Shown here one piece after another: positions 16,980 through 23,125 of a stretch of DNA of 64,000 bases. The stretch is from Anaerohalosphaera lusitana. Lineage in GTDB: Bacteria > Planctomycetota > Phycisphaerae > Sedimentisphaerales > Anaerohalosphaeraceae. Below the pieces are notes generated by a model, which saw nothing but the letters and a program-made list of their open reading frames with translations, ran no database searches and was not told where the DNA came from. The translations under genes were made by a program, and so were the position numbers. Every line of letters begins with the position of its first letter. Position 1 is the first letter of the stretch. The DNA lies in the NCBI RefSeq assembly GCF_002007645.1, contig NZ_CP019791.1, positions 186,001 to 250,000 of the forward strand. Reading direction: 5' to 3'.

Positions 16980-17002
16980 CGAATGTCAAAATCTCAACTG
17001 CC

Positions 17003-17093
17003 GCCGCTTCCCTACGCAGGTACGCCAAAAGGCTATCCTGATCAGGTTCATAGGGACTGTCTCAGACCGGCAAAAAACCAGCCACCCCTAGCG
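17003..17093 (-). promoter_or_regulatory. TPP riboswitch (THI element)
   Basis: Read on the minus strand, the conserved blocks appear in order: TAGGGGTGGCTGG, then CTGAGA (in TCTGAGACAG), then CCCTATGAACCTGATCAGG, then a closing CGTAGGGAAG. These are the pyrimidine- and pyrophosphate-sensing helices of the TPP aptamer. The apical stem is of the short kind. It precedes a terminator and thiC. Confidence 0.95.
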
Positions 17094-17194
17094 AACACAA
17101 ACATTATACCCAACCCCCACCCCAACAGTCAATCCAATAAAATTTTTCCCCGAAACAGACCGCTCATTACATCAACAACCGACAATACCCGCGT

Positions 17195-17309: not shown

Positions 17310-18419
17310 CTAAACCTTGATCACCTGCAGCTTCTCCTTCGCGAACGAAAAGCCCTTGTCCTTCGTCAGCACCTTATGTCCCTTATCGGTGATCAGCACA
17401 TCGTCCTCGATACGCACGCCCATCTTGCCCGCAATATAACAGCCAGGCTCGATCGTCACGATATCGCCCGCCTTCAGCACGCCCTTCGCACGCGGACTGA
17501 AACTCGGCGCCTCGTGCACTTCAAGCCCAAGCCCGTGCCCCGTGCCGTGCTTGAACACAGGCACATCGTGCTTGCGCAAAACCTGTCGACACGCCGCATC
17601 CACCTCGCGCAGGCTCGCGCCCGGCTTGCACGCCTCGATCCCCGCCAGGTTCGCCTCCAGCACGGCATAATATATCTTCTCGTGCTGCTTGTTCACCTTC
17701 CCAACCGCCAGCGAACGCGTCGTATCACTAGTATAACTATTATACCTCGCGCCCCAGTCGATCAATATCGTATCGTTCTTGCGCAGCTTCCGCGAGCCCG
17801 GCTGATGGTGGTTCCGCGAACAGTTCGGCCCAAACGCCATGATCGTCTCGAACCCCGCCTGCGATCCCATCTTACGCATCGTAAAATCGAGCAGCCCGCC
17901 AAGCTCCTTCTCCGTGATCCCCACGCGAACCTGACCGAGCGTCTCTTCCAGCGCCTTGAACGCGATCTTGCCCGCCCGCTGCACGTTCTTCGCCTCGTCG
18001 TCGTTCTTCGTCCGACGTACCGCCTCGGGCAGTCCGCTGGCCGGCTTGACCTTCGCCTTGGTCGCCTTGCGTATTTCCTTCTTCAGCAGATCGAACGCCG
18101 CATAACTGCACCGCGTCTCCAGCCCGACCGTCTCGATATTCTTGAACCGCGCAAGCACCTCGCCAACACCCTTTGCAAGCCCCTTCGCATGCTCGTAATA
18201 CTTACACGCAAAACACTCACCCATCGCCTGCTCGGTGTATCGGCTGTCCGTAACCATCGTCATCCCGCTCCGCGCGATCACCAGCGCACTCTCGTGTCCC
18301 GTAAAGCCAGTCATATATGTAAGATTCTCATTGCACAGCAGCACCAGCGCATCGAAACCCTTTTCCTTCATCTGCTTGCGAACCGCCTTCAATCTCGCCT
18401 TAGCGACCTGCTCATTCAT
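17310..18419 (-). CDS. Xaa-Pro aminopeptidase (M24 family)
   Basis: M24B metallopeptidases remove an N-terminal residue before proline in the cytoplasm. The start at 18419 is chosen for the GGAG site nine bases upstream; the protein is then 369 residues. Residues 1-125 form the creatinase N-domain. The pita-bread catalytic domain shows the five metal ligands in order: Asp in ILIDWGARYNSY, Asp in SDTTRSLAVG, His in HGTGHGLGLEVHE, Glu in TIEPGCYI and Glu in VRIEDDVLIT. The second HGLG-VHE histidine is also present. It lies between two repeat elements as a single gene. Aminopeptidase against dipeptidase cannot be separated by eye. Confidence 0.92.
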   Translation of the reverse strand: MNEQVAKARLKAVRKQMKEKGFDALVLLCNENLTYMTGFTGHESALVIARSGMTMVTDSRYTEQAMGECFACKYYEHAKGLAKGVGEVLARFKNIETVGLETRCSYAAFDLLKKEIRKATKAKVKPASGLPEAVRRTKNDDEAKNVQRAGKIAFKALEETLGQVRVGITEKELGGLLDFTMRKMGSQAGFETIMAFGPNCSRNHHQPGSRKLRKNDTILIDWGARYNSYTSDTTRSLAVGKVNKQHEKIYYAVLEANLAGIEACKPGASLREVDAACRQVLRKHDVPVFKHGTGHGLGLEVHEAPSFSPRAKGVLKAGDIVTIEPGCYIAGKMGVRIEDDVLITDKGHKVLTKDKGFSFAKEKLQVIKV

Positions 18420-18566
18420 CCCGATTTCTCCATTCGAAAATTGATCGATTGTTAAACCCACAACAGGCCCACAAGCCTAACACACCAACCCAACCGCGTA
18501 AAGCTATTTCCCGCATTAACAGCATTACACAATGAGATATACTTTCTCGCAGCAATGCCAGAACGA

Positions 18567-18654: not shown

Positions 18655-20862
18655 CTACTCCACCAGCTTGATCAAAACCACACCGTTCGAATCATCGCCG
18701 GTATCACCCATCACGTTCGCACGCACGAAATAATTCGCACCCGTCTCAAAATCATCGATCTTCAGCCGGTACGTGTTCGCCTTCCGCTGTCCGCCCGTGA
18801 ACCCGTGATGCACATCCCGCGCGACGACCTTGTCGTTAACGATCACCTCGACCTTCTCGATATCCAGCCGCTGTTGCCCGCTCGTATACATGAACGTCAC
18901 CTCATACACCCCCGCCTTGTTGATCAGCCCGGTCGCGTCGAACTTCACCGGCGAATACGTTCCCGCCGACACCTTGCCCGACTCCCACTCGCCAAGCTTC
19001 TCACCGAACTCGGCGAACTGCTTGCTTACGTCCGGAGGAAACTGAAACGCCAGGCTGTAGTGCCGACGATCCACAACCGTTATCGCCGCGAACTTCTGCG
19101 GATCATCCACCTTCACCGGGCCACCGTAAACATCCGAATAAGGCGTAGGATACCGCCCGTCCGTCGTATACCGAACCTCCGCGCCGGCCACCGGACTGCT
19201 CGCCGTGATCATATAACCGTCCGCCGTCCGCTTTTTCTCAACCTCGGGCACCGGCACACGATAATGCCATCCCGCCCCGTCATACCTGCCGTACTGAACG
19301 CTCTGCCTCGCCGCAAAATCCTCCCAGCCGCGAAGCTTCTCCGGCGTCCACACAACCTCCGCCAGCGCCGCCATCCTCGGCAGCGTCAGATAATCCACAT
19401 ACCGCCAGCTCCGCTTCTCCGCCAGCACCTTCATGTCCTGCAAAAAGGGCTTGTGCAAAAACTGATCCGTCCACAAACATCCGTGCCCGCCCAGTATGTA
19501 TTTTTTCTCAGCCTCGCTCAGCACCTTCGGCGCGGGCTCCCACTGGTACGCCTTCTTCAGCGAGATCGGCGGCAGCCACGTCGCAGCCGGCGGCTCACCG
19601 GGCAGACCGCTCTCGGGCGTATCGAAATATGCGTGCCCCGTCAGCGCCATCACAACATTGTTCCCACTCTTCGCGGCCTGTACAGCCGTCGCGGGCCTGT
19701 GCCACGTCATCACCGTCGCGTTCGGCGCGAGCCCGCAGTCCAGTATCTCGTCCCAGCCGATCAGCCGACGATCCTTCGTCATCAGAAACTTCTCCACCCG
19801 CCTCGTCATATAACCCTGAAGCTGTTTGTAATTCTCCAGCCCTTCCTCTTCCATCCGCTTCCTGCAATGCTCGCACTGCTTCCAACGATCGTACCTCGCC
19901 TCGTCCCCGCCGATATGCACGAACCGCCCCGGGAACATCTCAACAACCTCGCTGAGAACATCCTCGACAAACTCATACGTGCTCTCGCGACCGGCACACA
20001 TGATCTCCCGCGATATCCAGTGCTTCGTCGGCATCTCGAACTGCTCGCCCGTACACCCAAGCCACGGATACGCACACAGCGCAGACATCGCATGCGCGGG
20101 CATCTCTATCTCCGGCACGATCTCGATATGCAGCCTGTTCGCATACTCGACGATCTCACGAATATCCTCCTTCGTATAGTACCCACCAGACCGATCCGCC
20201 CCCTTGCCGCGAAACGCCCCAACCTCCGTCAGCTTCGGATACTTCTCGATCTCGACCCGCCAACCCGCATCATCTACCACATGAAGCTGCAGCACGTTCA
20301 GCTTGTGCATCGCCATCATGTCCATGTACCGCTTCACGTAATCCTTGTCCATGAAGTACCGCGATACATCCAGCATCATCCCGCGCCACGGATAGCTCGG
20401 CTCATCCTCGATCCGCACACACGGCACCTGCCACTTAACGCCCTCTCCGCCACCGCCGTAAACCTCCGCCGGCAGCAACTGCCTCAACGTCTGTATCCCA
20501 TAAAACACGCCCGCCGCCGACGCGCCTTCTATCACGATCTCGTCCTCGTCAACGATCAGCGTATAGCCTTCCTCATTCTCGCCCGCTTCTTCCGCGACCT
20601 TCAACTCGATCACACTTGCCGCACCGCCAGCCGAACCCGCAATAGAAACGTCCAGCCCAGCCGCCGACAGATAATCCGCCAGCAGTTCCGCCTCGCCCCG
20701 CAAATCCGCCCCAGCAACGATCACCGTATCATCCGAAATATCGAACACCCCCGCCTTGCTGGCAACCTCCACAGGCTTTGGAATGACATTCATCTCATCC
20801 GCCCCGACAAAACCCGCAAATAAAACCAAAACCAGAACCGCCAACACACACAAACGCTTCAT
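18655..20862 (-). CDS. Secreted beta-N-acetylhexosaminidase, GH20
   Basis: GH20 enzymes remove terminal beta-GlcNAc or beta-GalNAc by substrate-assisted catalysis. The 735-residue protein has a Sec signal (MKRLCVLAVLVLVLFAGFVGA), a GH20b-type domain to about residue 150, and the catalytic barrel from RIEDEPSYPWRGMMLDVSRYF to about residue 500. The catalytic pair is Asp320-Glu321 in HIGGDEARY. VPEIEMPAHAM and WDEILDCGL are further active-site loops. Residues 540-610 resemble the chitobiase C-terminal domain (VRYTTDGRYPTPYSDVYGG), and the tail is a beta-sandwich like a carbohydrate-binding module. It probably acts outside the cytoplasm on chitin-like or mucin-like glycans. No operon partner is adjacent. 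Confidence 0.94.
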   Translation of the reverse strand: MKRLCVLAVLVLVLFAGFVGADEMNVIPKPVEVASKAGVFDISDDTVIVAGADLRGEAELLADYLSAAGLDVSIAGSAGGAASVIELKVAEEAGENEEGYTLIVDEDEIVIEGASAAGVFYGIQTLRQLLPAEVYGGGGEGVKWQVPCVRIEDEPSYPWRGMMLDVSRYFMDKDYVKRYMDMMAMHKLNVLQLHVVDDAGWRVEIEKYPKLTEVGAFRGKGADRSGGYYTKEDIREIVEYANRLHIEIVPEIEMPAHAMSALCAYPWLGCTGEQFEMPTKHWISREIMCAGRESTYEFVEDVLSEVVEMFPGRFVHIGGDEARYDRWKQCEHCRKRMEEEGLENYKQLQGYMTRRVEKFLMTKDRRLIGWDEILDCGLAPNATVMTWHRPATAVQAAKSGNNVVMALTGHAYFDTPESGLPGEPPAATWLPPISLKKAYQWEPAPKVLSEAEKKYILGGHGCLWTDQFLHKPFLQDMKVLAEKRSWRYVDYLTLPRMAALAEVVWTPEKLRGWEDFAARQSVQYGRYDGAGWHYRVPVPEVEKKRTADGYMITASSPVAGAEVRYTTDGRYPTPYSDVYGGPVKVDDPQKFAAITVVDRRHYSLAFQFPPDVSKQFAEFGEKLGEWESGKVSAGTYSPVKFDATGLINKAGVYEVTFMYTSGQQRLDIEKVEVIVNDKVVARDVHHGFTGGQRKANTYRLKIDDFETGANYFVRANVMGDTGDDSNGVVLIKLVE

Positions 20863-20902: not shown

Positions 20903-21067
20903 TAGAAGCTGTTTCATAACTGCTTTTGGCTTGCCGGCGAGCAATTTTTTCGTCTCGGCAAGGCGGGCGAAATTGGTAATAGCCGTAACTATGGCCGATT
21001 TTGCACAACGCAGCCGAGCGGAAAAAGGGCCGCCGAAAGACAAATCTGAGTTTTGAAACCGCTTCTA
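20903..21067. mobile_element. MITE-like element with terminal inverted repeats
   Basis: A 165-bp non-coding unit whose ends are inverted copies: TAGAAGCTGTTTCATAAC at 20903-20920 and its complement-like GTTTTGAAACCGCTTCTA at 21050-21067 (16 of 18 positions match). The interior has no convincing gene. The right end occurs again at 15554-15569, and a compact version of both ends lies inside the RNA unit at 21683-21709. A TA dinucleotide at each tip could be the target duplication. Confidence 0.6.
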
Positions 21068-21557: not shown

Positions 21558-21586
21558 TTGCACTCCCGCGCCCCAATTCGTATATT
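21558..21586 (+). promoter_or_regulatory. Sigma-70-type promoter of the structured RNA unit
   Basis: TTGCAC (21558-21563), a 17-base spacer, and TATATT (21581-21586). Transcription would start near 21593. No credible coding frame follows; a strong terminator lies 240 bases further on. Confidence 0.65.
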
Positions 21587-21593
21587 TTCCGTG

Positions 21594-21832
21594 CCAGCAG
21601 TTAAATGGCAAAGCCGGACTCACAAACAAAGACTAACTTTTCCACTCCTATAGTTCGGCATGGATGCCGCAGCAGAAGCTGTCTAAACTGTTTTAAATGG
21701 CTTCTAAAAATCTGTTTACGTGCTCAGGTGCTCCCAACGCACCGCCCGGCGAGGTATGCTTCCGGAGGGAAGAAAACGCCATACCGACCCGGTAGCAGGG
21801 CTCGGCCTCATACGAGACTGAGCCCTGTTTTT
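21594..21832 (+). ncRNA. Candidate structured non-coding RNA, family unknown
   Basis: About 240 bases framed by a good promoter and an intrinsic terminator. Inside are several clear hairpins: CGGCAT-GG-ATGCCG (about 21657), AGAAGC with GCTTCT (21683-21708), GGTGC with GCACC (about 21733-21749), and a nested stem GGTATG/CATACC enclosing CTTCC-GGAG-GGAAG (about 21755-21790). The one open frame crossing it (21605-21844) gives no protein-like composition. I could not match it to SRP RNA, 6S RNA, tmRNA, RNase P or a known riboswitch by their conserved words. It could be a free small RNA or the leader of the rhomboid gene at 21929. Confidence 0.5.
21797..21832 (+). terminator. Intrinsic terminator of the structured RNA unit
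   Basis: AGGGCTC (21797-21803) pairs with GAGCCCT (21820-21826), with a few more pairs inside the 16-base loop, and is followed by GTTTTTATT. It lies about 97 bases before the rhomboid start codon. Confidence 0.82.
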
Positions 21833-21928
21833 ATTCCTTGTTGACCGGCCCGATTCCGCTTAGAATAAGCCCGAACAATGTTTCGCTCCAAATGAACGTC
21901 TAATGAATACGATCCGATAGAATAAAGC

Positions 21929-23125
21929 ATGATTTTCCCCATACAAACAACCGCACAACCAAGACATAAGCCATACACAAATTACGCCCTTATCGTCATG
22001 AACGTGCTCATCTTCCTCGTCACCTACATCGGCGAGCACCGAGCTCCCACAGGTGAACCAGAGGTCCTCCGCGCCTGGGCCAACGAATTCATGCTCACAC
22101 CCATCCGCCCACAGCTCTGGCAGTTCATCTCGTACGCCTTCCTGCACGGGTCCTTTATGCACATCTTCGGCAACATGTACTTCCTCTACATGTTCGGCAA
22201 CAGCGTAAACGACCGCCTGGGCAACGTCGGCTATCTCTGCTTCTACCTCGCGGGAAGCATAATCGCAGGCCTGGGCCATTTCGCCTTTTCGAATTCCCCC
22301 GTCCTCGGCGCAAGCGGCGCCGTCGCAGCCGTAACCGGCGCATACCTCGTCCTGTTCCCAAAATCCGTCATCACAGTCATATACTGGTTCTTCATTATCG
22401 GCACCATCGAGGTCCCCGCCTTCTGGTTCATCGGCCTCAAGCTCATCGTCATCGACAATCTCATCGTCCAGACCGCCGCAAACGTCGCATACGACGCCCA
22501 TCTCACCGGCTACGCGTTCGGCATCATATCCATATACCTCCTCCTCGTCCTGCACCTCCAGGAACACGAACCCCAGGACCTCGCGATCGTCCTCAAACAG
22601 TGGTACCGCCGCCGAAAATACAAATCCGCCGTCTCGCAAGGCTTCGACCCCTTCTCCGGCAGCACCGAAACCACCAAGAAGGTCCGCGCCAAAACCCGCG
22701 ACACCAAAAAGGCCCACCAGCAGAAGATCAACGACCAGCAGATAAAGCACCTCCGCGGCGAGATCGGCAAAAACGTCACCGAACGAAACCTCCCCGAAGC
22801 AGCCCGCATATACGCCGAGCTACTCGAGCTCGACCCCGGCCACGTCATGCCCCGCCAGTACCAGCTCGACATCGCAAATCAGCTCATGTCCGAGTGCAAA
22901 TGGCAGCTCTCCGCCCAGGCATACGAAGGCTTCATGAAGCACTACGAAAACGCCGAATACGCCGAACAGGTCGAACTCATGCTCGGCATCCTCTACTCAC
23001 GCTACCTCGACAAGCCCGCACTCGCCGCCAAATACTTCAAACAGGCCCGCGAAAAACTCCACGACCCCGGCCAGATCCGCCTCTGCGAAGCGGAACTCGC
23101 CAAACTCCGCGAAAAAGGCCACTGA
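21929..23125 (+). CDS. Rhomboid-family intramembrane serine protease with TPR-like tail
   Basis: Rhomboids cut membrane proteins within or near their transmembrane helices. The six-helix core spans about residues 18-215. The first luminal loop has FISYAFLHGSFMHIFGNMYFLYMFG, with the His-x3-Asn pair. The catalytic serine is Ser129 in LGASGAVAAV and the histidine His191 in DAHLTGYAFG. After residue 250 the protein is soluble, highly charged, and has helix pairs (for example NLPEAARIYAELLELDPGH, SAQAYEGFMKHYEN, KPALAAKYFKQAREK) that resemble tetratricopeptide repeats. The tail may bind the substrate or a partner on the cytoplasmic side. The gene follows the structured RNA unit on the same strand. 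Confidence 0.9.
   Translation: MIFPIQTTAQPRHKPYTNYALIVMNVLIFLVTYIGEHRAPTGEPEVLRAWANEFMLTPIRPQLWQFISYAFLHGSFMHIFGNMYFLYMFGNSVNDRLGNVGYLCFYLAGSIIAGLGHFAFSNSPVLGASGAVAAVTGAYLVLFPKSVITVIYWFFIIGTIEVPAFWFIGLKLIVIDNLIVQTAANVAYDAHLTGYAFGIISIYLLLVLHLQEHEPQDLAIVLKQWYRRRKYKSAVSQGFDPFSGSTETTKKVRAKTRDTKKAHQQKINDQQIKHLRGEIGKNVTERNLPEAARIYAELLELDPGHVMPRQYQLDIANQLMSECKWQLSAQAYEGFMKHYENAEYAEQVELMLGILYSRYLDKPALAAKYFKQAREKLHDPGQIRLCEAELAKLREKGH

Follow-up and report, generated by a model that had tools for sequence, protein, structure and literature searches.

A family-specific small RNA gene with its own promoter and terminator and a putative CsrA site in Anaerohalosphaera lusitana

A small RNA locus between an M24 peptidase gene and a rhomboid protease gene

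The window, meaning the whole 64,000-nucleotide stretch of Anaerohalosphaera lusitana DNA that was analysed, carries a candidate small RNA (sRNA) gene with the following features and neighbours.

17310-18461, minus strand: M24 peptidase gene (PF00557, E 4.5e-64), the ancestral upstream neighbour, divergent
21558-21586, plus strand: sigma-70-type promoter of the sRNA, TTGCAC (21558-21563)-N17-TATATT (21581-21586), from the sequence
21593-21832, plus strand: small RNA gene of ~240 nt, placed by the model R1 match and synteny with relatives
21641-21669, plus strand: conserved core of ~30 nt, UCCACUCC (21641-21648) and the hairpin CGGCA-UGGA-UGCCG (21656-21669), from alignment A3
21659-21666, plus strand: CANGGANG, putative CsrA-binding site in the hairpin loop, kept in 26 of 27 sequences
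21673-21706, plus strand: 34-nt inverted repeat like the local MITE ends, apparent insertion in the sRNA, absent from homologues
21707-21795, plus strand: apparent lineage-specific extension with hairpins, including GGTATG-CTTCC-GGAG-GGAAG-AAAACGC-CATACC (21753-21785)
21796-21832, plus strand: intrinsic terminator of the sRNA, stem 21796-21827 and T5, from the fold and covariation in homologues
21838-21866, plus strand: rhomboid promoter, TTGTTG-N17-TAGAAT, position kept in relatives whether or not they have the sRNA
21929-23125, plus strand: rhomboid protease gene (PF01694, E 2e-27), the downstream neighbour, outside the RNA

The order M24-sRNA-rhomboid is kept in the window; a GH20 hexosaminidase gene and a MITE separate M24 from the sRNA. 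The GH20 gene (18655-20862, minus strand) is not found at that place in relatives with adjacent M24 and sRNA genes. The MITE (20903-21067, ~165 bp, ends TAGAAGC...GCTTCTA) is a real repeat: 56 stretches of the genome match it at E<=1, ~20 of these spanning most of its length at 78-93 percent identity, and it is bordered by TA, as Tc1/mariner-IS630 type elements are. Several genera (L114-L120, L069) share a conserved AAAATAAAG-TTTTTT word in the interval from the M24 start to the sRNA promoter, possibly an upstream promoter element or else part of the M24 promoter. A TPP riboswitch at 16992-17099 (minus strand) scores 54.7 bits, against an Rfam gathering score of 54.3.

A preliminary description of this DNA had proposed an unrecognised structured RNA that carries a promoter and a terminator of its own, and both signals are where it had put them. 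The transcription start is inferred, 7 nt past the -10 box. The promoter is one of 2 sites returned by a consensus scan that returns 1.0 in shuffled sequence, so the call is weak taken alone. In many homologues TTG(C/G)NN-N17-TAtnnT precedes the core at a comparable position, and a score of at least 8/12 is reached in 18 of 26 homologous upstream regions versus 9.1 expected from shuffles, giving moderate support. The terminator hairpin at 21796 is absent from the listing of a consensus terminator scan, we think because its stem is interrupted. The homologue alignment revealed the covarying pairs that had been called for as a check: both sides change in 13 of the 15 pairs of this stem (shuffle mean, 6.8; none of 500 shuffles equal), and the signal also exceeds that of every slid version. 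The strong structure that had been claimed is likewise evident, the 275-nt stretch having a minimum free energy of -88 kcal/mol that only 2 of 200 shuffles equal (z -2.5).

The RNA had also been said to belong to no known family, in keeping with our Rfam search, which yielded no family at gathering score over the region and none at E<=10 in the surrounding 501 nt; on 11 homologue loci there were only 5 subthreshold matches, to unrelated families. A coding sRNA was ruled out: the 27 RNAs share no open reading frame of at least 15 amino acids, and the reading frames listed are sporadic.

Homologues and their distribution

A BLASTN search of 59 relatives with the region recovered only the region itself at E<0.03, and it is single-copy. 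Homology was reached only via synteny, in the DNA upstream of rhomboid orthologues, which occur in 34 of the 39 genomes of the family; 30 such upstream regions were examined, many of them combining a promoter and a terminator with a pyrimidine tract and a small hairpin. Alignment A1 and covariance model R1 were built from 14 of these homologues, with the window sequence excluded. In the own 4.25-Mb genome, R1 has a single match at E<=1 (window 21627-21695, 16.3 bits, E 0.81; E 9.5e-5 within the 501 nt around the site), which is weak by itself yet lies where synteny places the gene.

R1 matches 25 of the 39 family genomes at E<1e-4, and its extension to 161 genomes of the order brought one marginal addition among the 122 outside the family, at E 0.006 and to the terminator only. 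A core model, R2, includes the window, which by construction scores better with it (7.2e-4) than with R1. In 397 genomes of the class outside the family, R2 found nothing convincing: 8 genomes have matches at E 0.003 to 0.03, the number expected by chance, and the two inspected are both coding-like DNA without a terminator. Within the reach of the models, the RNA thus appears restricted to the family. This family is probably Anaerohalosphaeraceae, the label of one rhomboid relative (L022). Comparisons below use alignment A3, which comprises 27 sequences (the window, L069, and 25 R1 loci; a second match in genome G060, at a contig end, was left out); alignment A2, whose last 7 rows are reverse-strand terminators, was set aside.

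Independence from the rhomboid gene

The preliminary description had offered a leader of the rhomboid gene as a second possibility. A 5' leader or attenuator fits the arrangement in the window and in 16 of the 25 homologous loci, where the RNA lies directly upstream of rhomboid on the same strand. Against it, the rhomboid gene has a conserved promoter of its own past the terminator: TTGTC-N17-TACAAT scores at least 9/12 in 17 of 30 upstream regions (1.1 expected), and the 4 regions with no site are partly explained by a wrongly set start codon or a contig end. In five genomes (G013, G015, G016, G024, and G027), moreover, the RNA and rhomboid are on different contigs, and the RNA keeps its terminator. 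M24 adjoins the sRNA in 17 of the 25 loci; counted within the fetched stretch, some loci being cut by contig ends, 9 have M24 and rhomboid, 8 only M24, 7 only rhomboid, and 1 neither. The sRNA hence stays beside either gene where the other has moved. This conserved place, together with the separate rhomboid promoter, argues for an independent small RNA, and a leader can hardly be the right reading.

The locus is thus a single-copy, previously unlisted, family-specific sRNA gene that has a promoter and an intrinsic terminator of its own. Its transcription is predicted from these signals, and in relatives the expected transcript would measure about 85-160 nt. The new small RNA that had been suspected is supported by its homologues, the promoter position, the terminator covariation, and the lack of an Rfam match, and we are highly confident that the gene family is real.

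Insertions peculiar to the window

Between core and terminator, ~120 nt are peculiar to the window. The hairpins at 21673-21795 have no counterpart in the 26 homologues and look like lineage-specific insertions. It was on the hairpins of 21673-21785, absent from relatives, that the preliminary description had laid its stress, leaving the conserved part (21641-21669) unremarked. In the nested GGTATG stem that it reported, CATACC does not follow GGAAG directly: AAAACGC (21773-21779) intervenes, and the stem is bulged. The reported AGAAGC...GCTTCT pair is present at 21673-21706, and the nearby MITE (20903-21067) has similar ends. The inverted-repeat region has one match in the own genome (54 nt, 75 percent, E 0.05), overlapping the end of a MITE copy, and a search of this genome for a palindromic mini-MITE pattern was negative.

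These insertions raise the possibility of a decayed or chance array of hairpins made of MITE remnants, an ancestral sRNA having been broken in this genome. The extra ~120 nt, partly MITE-like, would suit such decay, as would the divergence of the window core, the second greatest in the set (28.8 bits, with L069 at 25.9 and the best up to 55.9). Promoter, core, and terminator are all retained, however, and the window core hairpin ranks second in stability among the sequences, so that we hold decay to be very improbable. The extension also contains a second GGA (21764-21766), in a hairpin loop and predicted 0.96 unpaired; the extra sequence may be decay or a second CsrA site in a genus without another genome in the set.

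The conserved core

The core consensus is UCC-N-CUCCUGUC...GCA-N-GGA-N-GC. Across the 27 sequences, UCC-N-CUCCUGU and GCA-N-GGA-N-GC are near-invariant, while both N columns take all four bases. CANGGANG, lost only in L120, equals the RsmE/CsrA contact consensus as it appears in excerpts of PMC6849547 and PMC5864733. Its N columns have entropies of 1.74 and 1.49 and its six fixed columns 0 to 0.23; the probability that chance makes precisely the N columns the most variable two of the 8 is 1/28. The site was sought as (A/U)CANGGANG(U/A) and found, with the outer A/U...U/A replaced by a G-C pair in most sequences.

Two mutually exclusive local pairings can form in the core, UCCUG/CA.GGA and GCA/NGC, and neither covaries in the homologue alignment; we therefore claim neither. 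RNAalifold prefers UCCUG/CA.GGA, whose pairing is formed in 98.1 percent of alignment cells, whereas in the window the CGGCA/UGCCG hairpin is predicted to be more stable (-8.9 versus -7.1 kcal/mol for the UCC pairing), with its GGA 0.83 unpaired. In many homologues the core hairpin is weak, and in several the GGA is predicted to be paired. The alternative pairings are a possible switch on these models, or could be noise in conserved sequence.

CsrA, Hfq, and candidate targets

CsrA is encoded in 31 of the 39 family genomes, including the own genome, whose CsrA-like sequence (67 amino acids) is full-length and, as we take it, keeps the RNA-contact residues. Hfq (PF17209) was found in none of the 39 by a search positive in 5 of 14 control genomes; the host Hfq expected of an Hfq-dependent sRNA was accordingly not seen. 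With the own genome excluded, 23 of the 25 genomes that carry the sRNA have CsrA, compared with 7 of the other 13 (Fisher p 0.011). Among genomes at least 90 percent complete the numbers are 12 of 12 and 5 of 6 (p 0.33), so incompleteness may explain the co-occurrence. Five such genomes (G004, G006, G007, G009, and G029) have CsrA with no sRNA detected. In both genomes of genus g9 (G008, 93 percent complete, and G018), neither was detected.

Perfect 12-nt complements of the pyrimidine tract occur at 29 places in the 39 genomes, 20 of them sRNA genes, and no conserved target emerged. The other 9 places compare with 6 for the reversed pattern; of the 8 inspected, most are coding-like, and one lies before an ATG in G002, where the sRNA is undetected.

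Proposed mechanism

We propose a base-pairing sRNA bound by CsrA, to which, as a combined mechanism read from the sequences, we assign a probability of 0.45 at most. The working part would be the ~30-nt core. The pyrimidine tract UCC-N-CUCCUGUC would pair with Shine-Dalgarno-like GGAG in messages, and the small hairpin would present CA-N-GGA-N-G to the CsrA dimer; CsrA, replacing the absent Hfq, would hold or remodel the RNA such that the tract reaches ribosome-binding sites and translation is blocked. That CsrA binds the RNA seems to us close to an even bet, falling slightly short of one; that the tract blocks ribosome-binding sites is a more tentative suggestion, the target search having been negative. 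The hairpin GGA is also a possible pairing partner for the UCC tract of the same RNA, so that binding of CsrA might be linked to exposure of the seed. Against the mechanism, a CsrA dimer would be expected to have more than the single conserved GGA site that each RNA provides, and much of the constraint on GGA could stem from UCC pairing.

The latter point leads to an anti-Shine-Dalgarno sRNA that works without CsrA, in which GGA is kept for pairing with UCC and shapes the seed hairpin. The near invariance of UCC-N-CUCCUGU and the RNAalifold preference for UCCUG/CA.GGA speak for it. It leaves unexplained why G28, G36, and C37, around the site, are conserved; its UCC/GGA pairing shows no covariation and is the less stable alternative in the window; and it, too, lacks a conserved target in the 39 genomes. 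We regard it as rather unlikely.

A sponge of the CsrB/RsmY-Z kind, titrating CsrA, would account for the retention of CANGGANG in all but one sequence, for several further GGA in the 5' part of L097, L100, and L102, and for the second loop GGA of the window. Only a single GGA site is common to all, however, L119, L111, and L113 have one GGA in the whole predicted RNA, and the invariant pyrimidine tract has no role in a sponge, which makes this account quite improbable.

A more specific form of the CsrA-bound sRNA is a CsrA-gated anti-Shine-Dalgarno switch operating without Hfq: the free RNA would mask its GGA by UCC, and CsrA would capture the GGA hairpin and release UCC onto ribosome-binding sites. 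We consider this form distinctly unlikely; if true, the free level of one protein, CsrA, would set a global translational brake, and Planctomycetota would have a CsrA-centred sRNA system.

Comparison with known systems

Planctomycete small RNAs are almost unstudied. In the tabulation excerpted from PMC9029176, 8 distinct sRNAs are given for the whole PVC group versus 345 for Proteobacteria, and the titles and abstracts consulted on planctomycete and Phycisphaerae small RNAs, CsrA, and Anaerohalosphaera do not describe this RNA. The family, from a lineage in which Hfq was not detected, provides an sRNA gene whose borders are defined, whose core is conserved, and whose putative protein partner can be tested, so that CsrA as the general sRNA partner becomes directly testable.

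RsaE and the Rhodobacter "cuckoo" RNAs are anti-Shine-Dalgarno sRNAs with CU-rich seeds. They resemble the window RNA in having a CUCC-type unpaired tract and an intrinsic terminator, and differ in sequence, lineage, and the core hairpin. The sponges CsrB/CsrC and RsmX/Y/Z carry GGA in hairpin loops that fit the CsrA/RsmE consensus, as here; neither the several conserved loop GGA of a sponge nor an Rfam match was found in the window RNA, which has one shared GGA site and an invariant pyrimidine tract. The Rhodopirellula-1 motif, like the window RNA a planctomycete candidate, is set apart by its description, being tabulated as probably cis-regulatory in the excerpted part of PMC2864571. In Bacillus, according to excerpts of PMC8501984, CsrA helps the sRNA SR1 to pair with ahrC mRNA. 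SR1 also codes for a peptide, in a host that possesses Hfq, whereas the window RNA has no shared reading frame and its family no detected Hfq, the two sequences having been compared via Rfam only. SR1 of Bacillus subtilis and the window RNA are alike in that each is an independent sRNA gene, and for SR1 CsrA is thought, in the excerpted accounts of PMC8501984 and PMC9029176, to aid pairing, the role that we tentatively propose for CsrA here.
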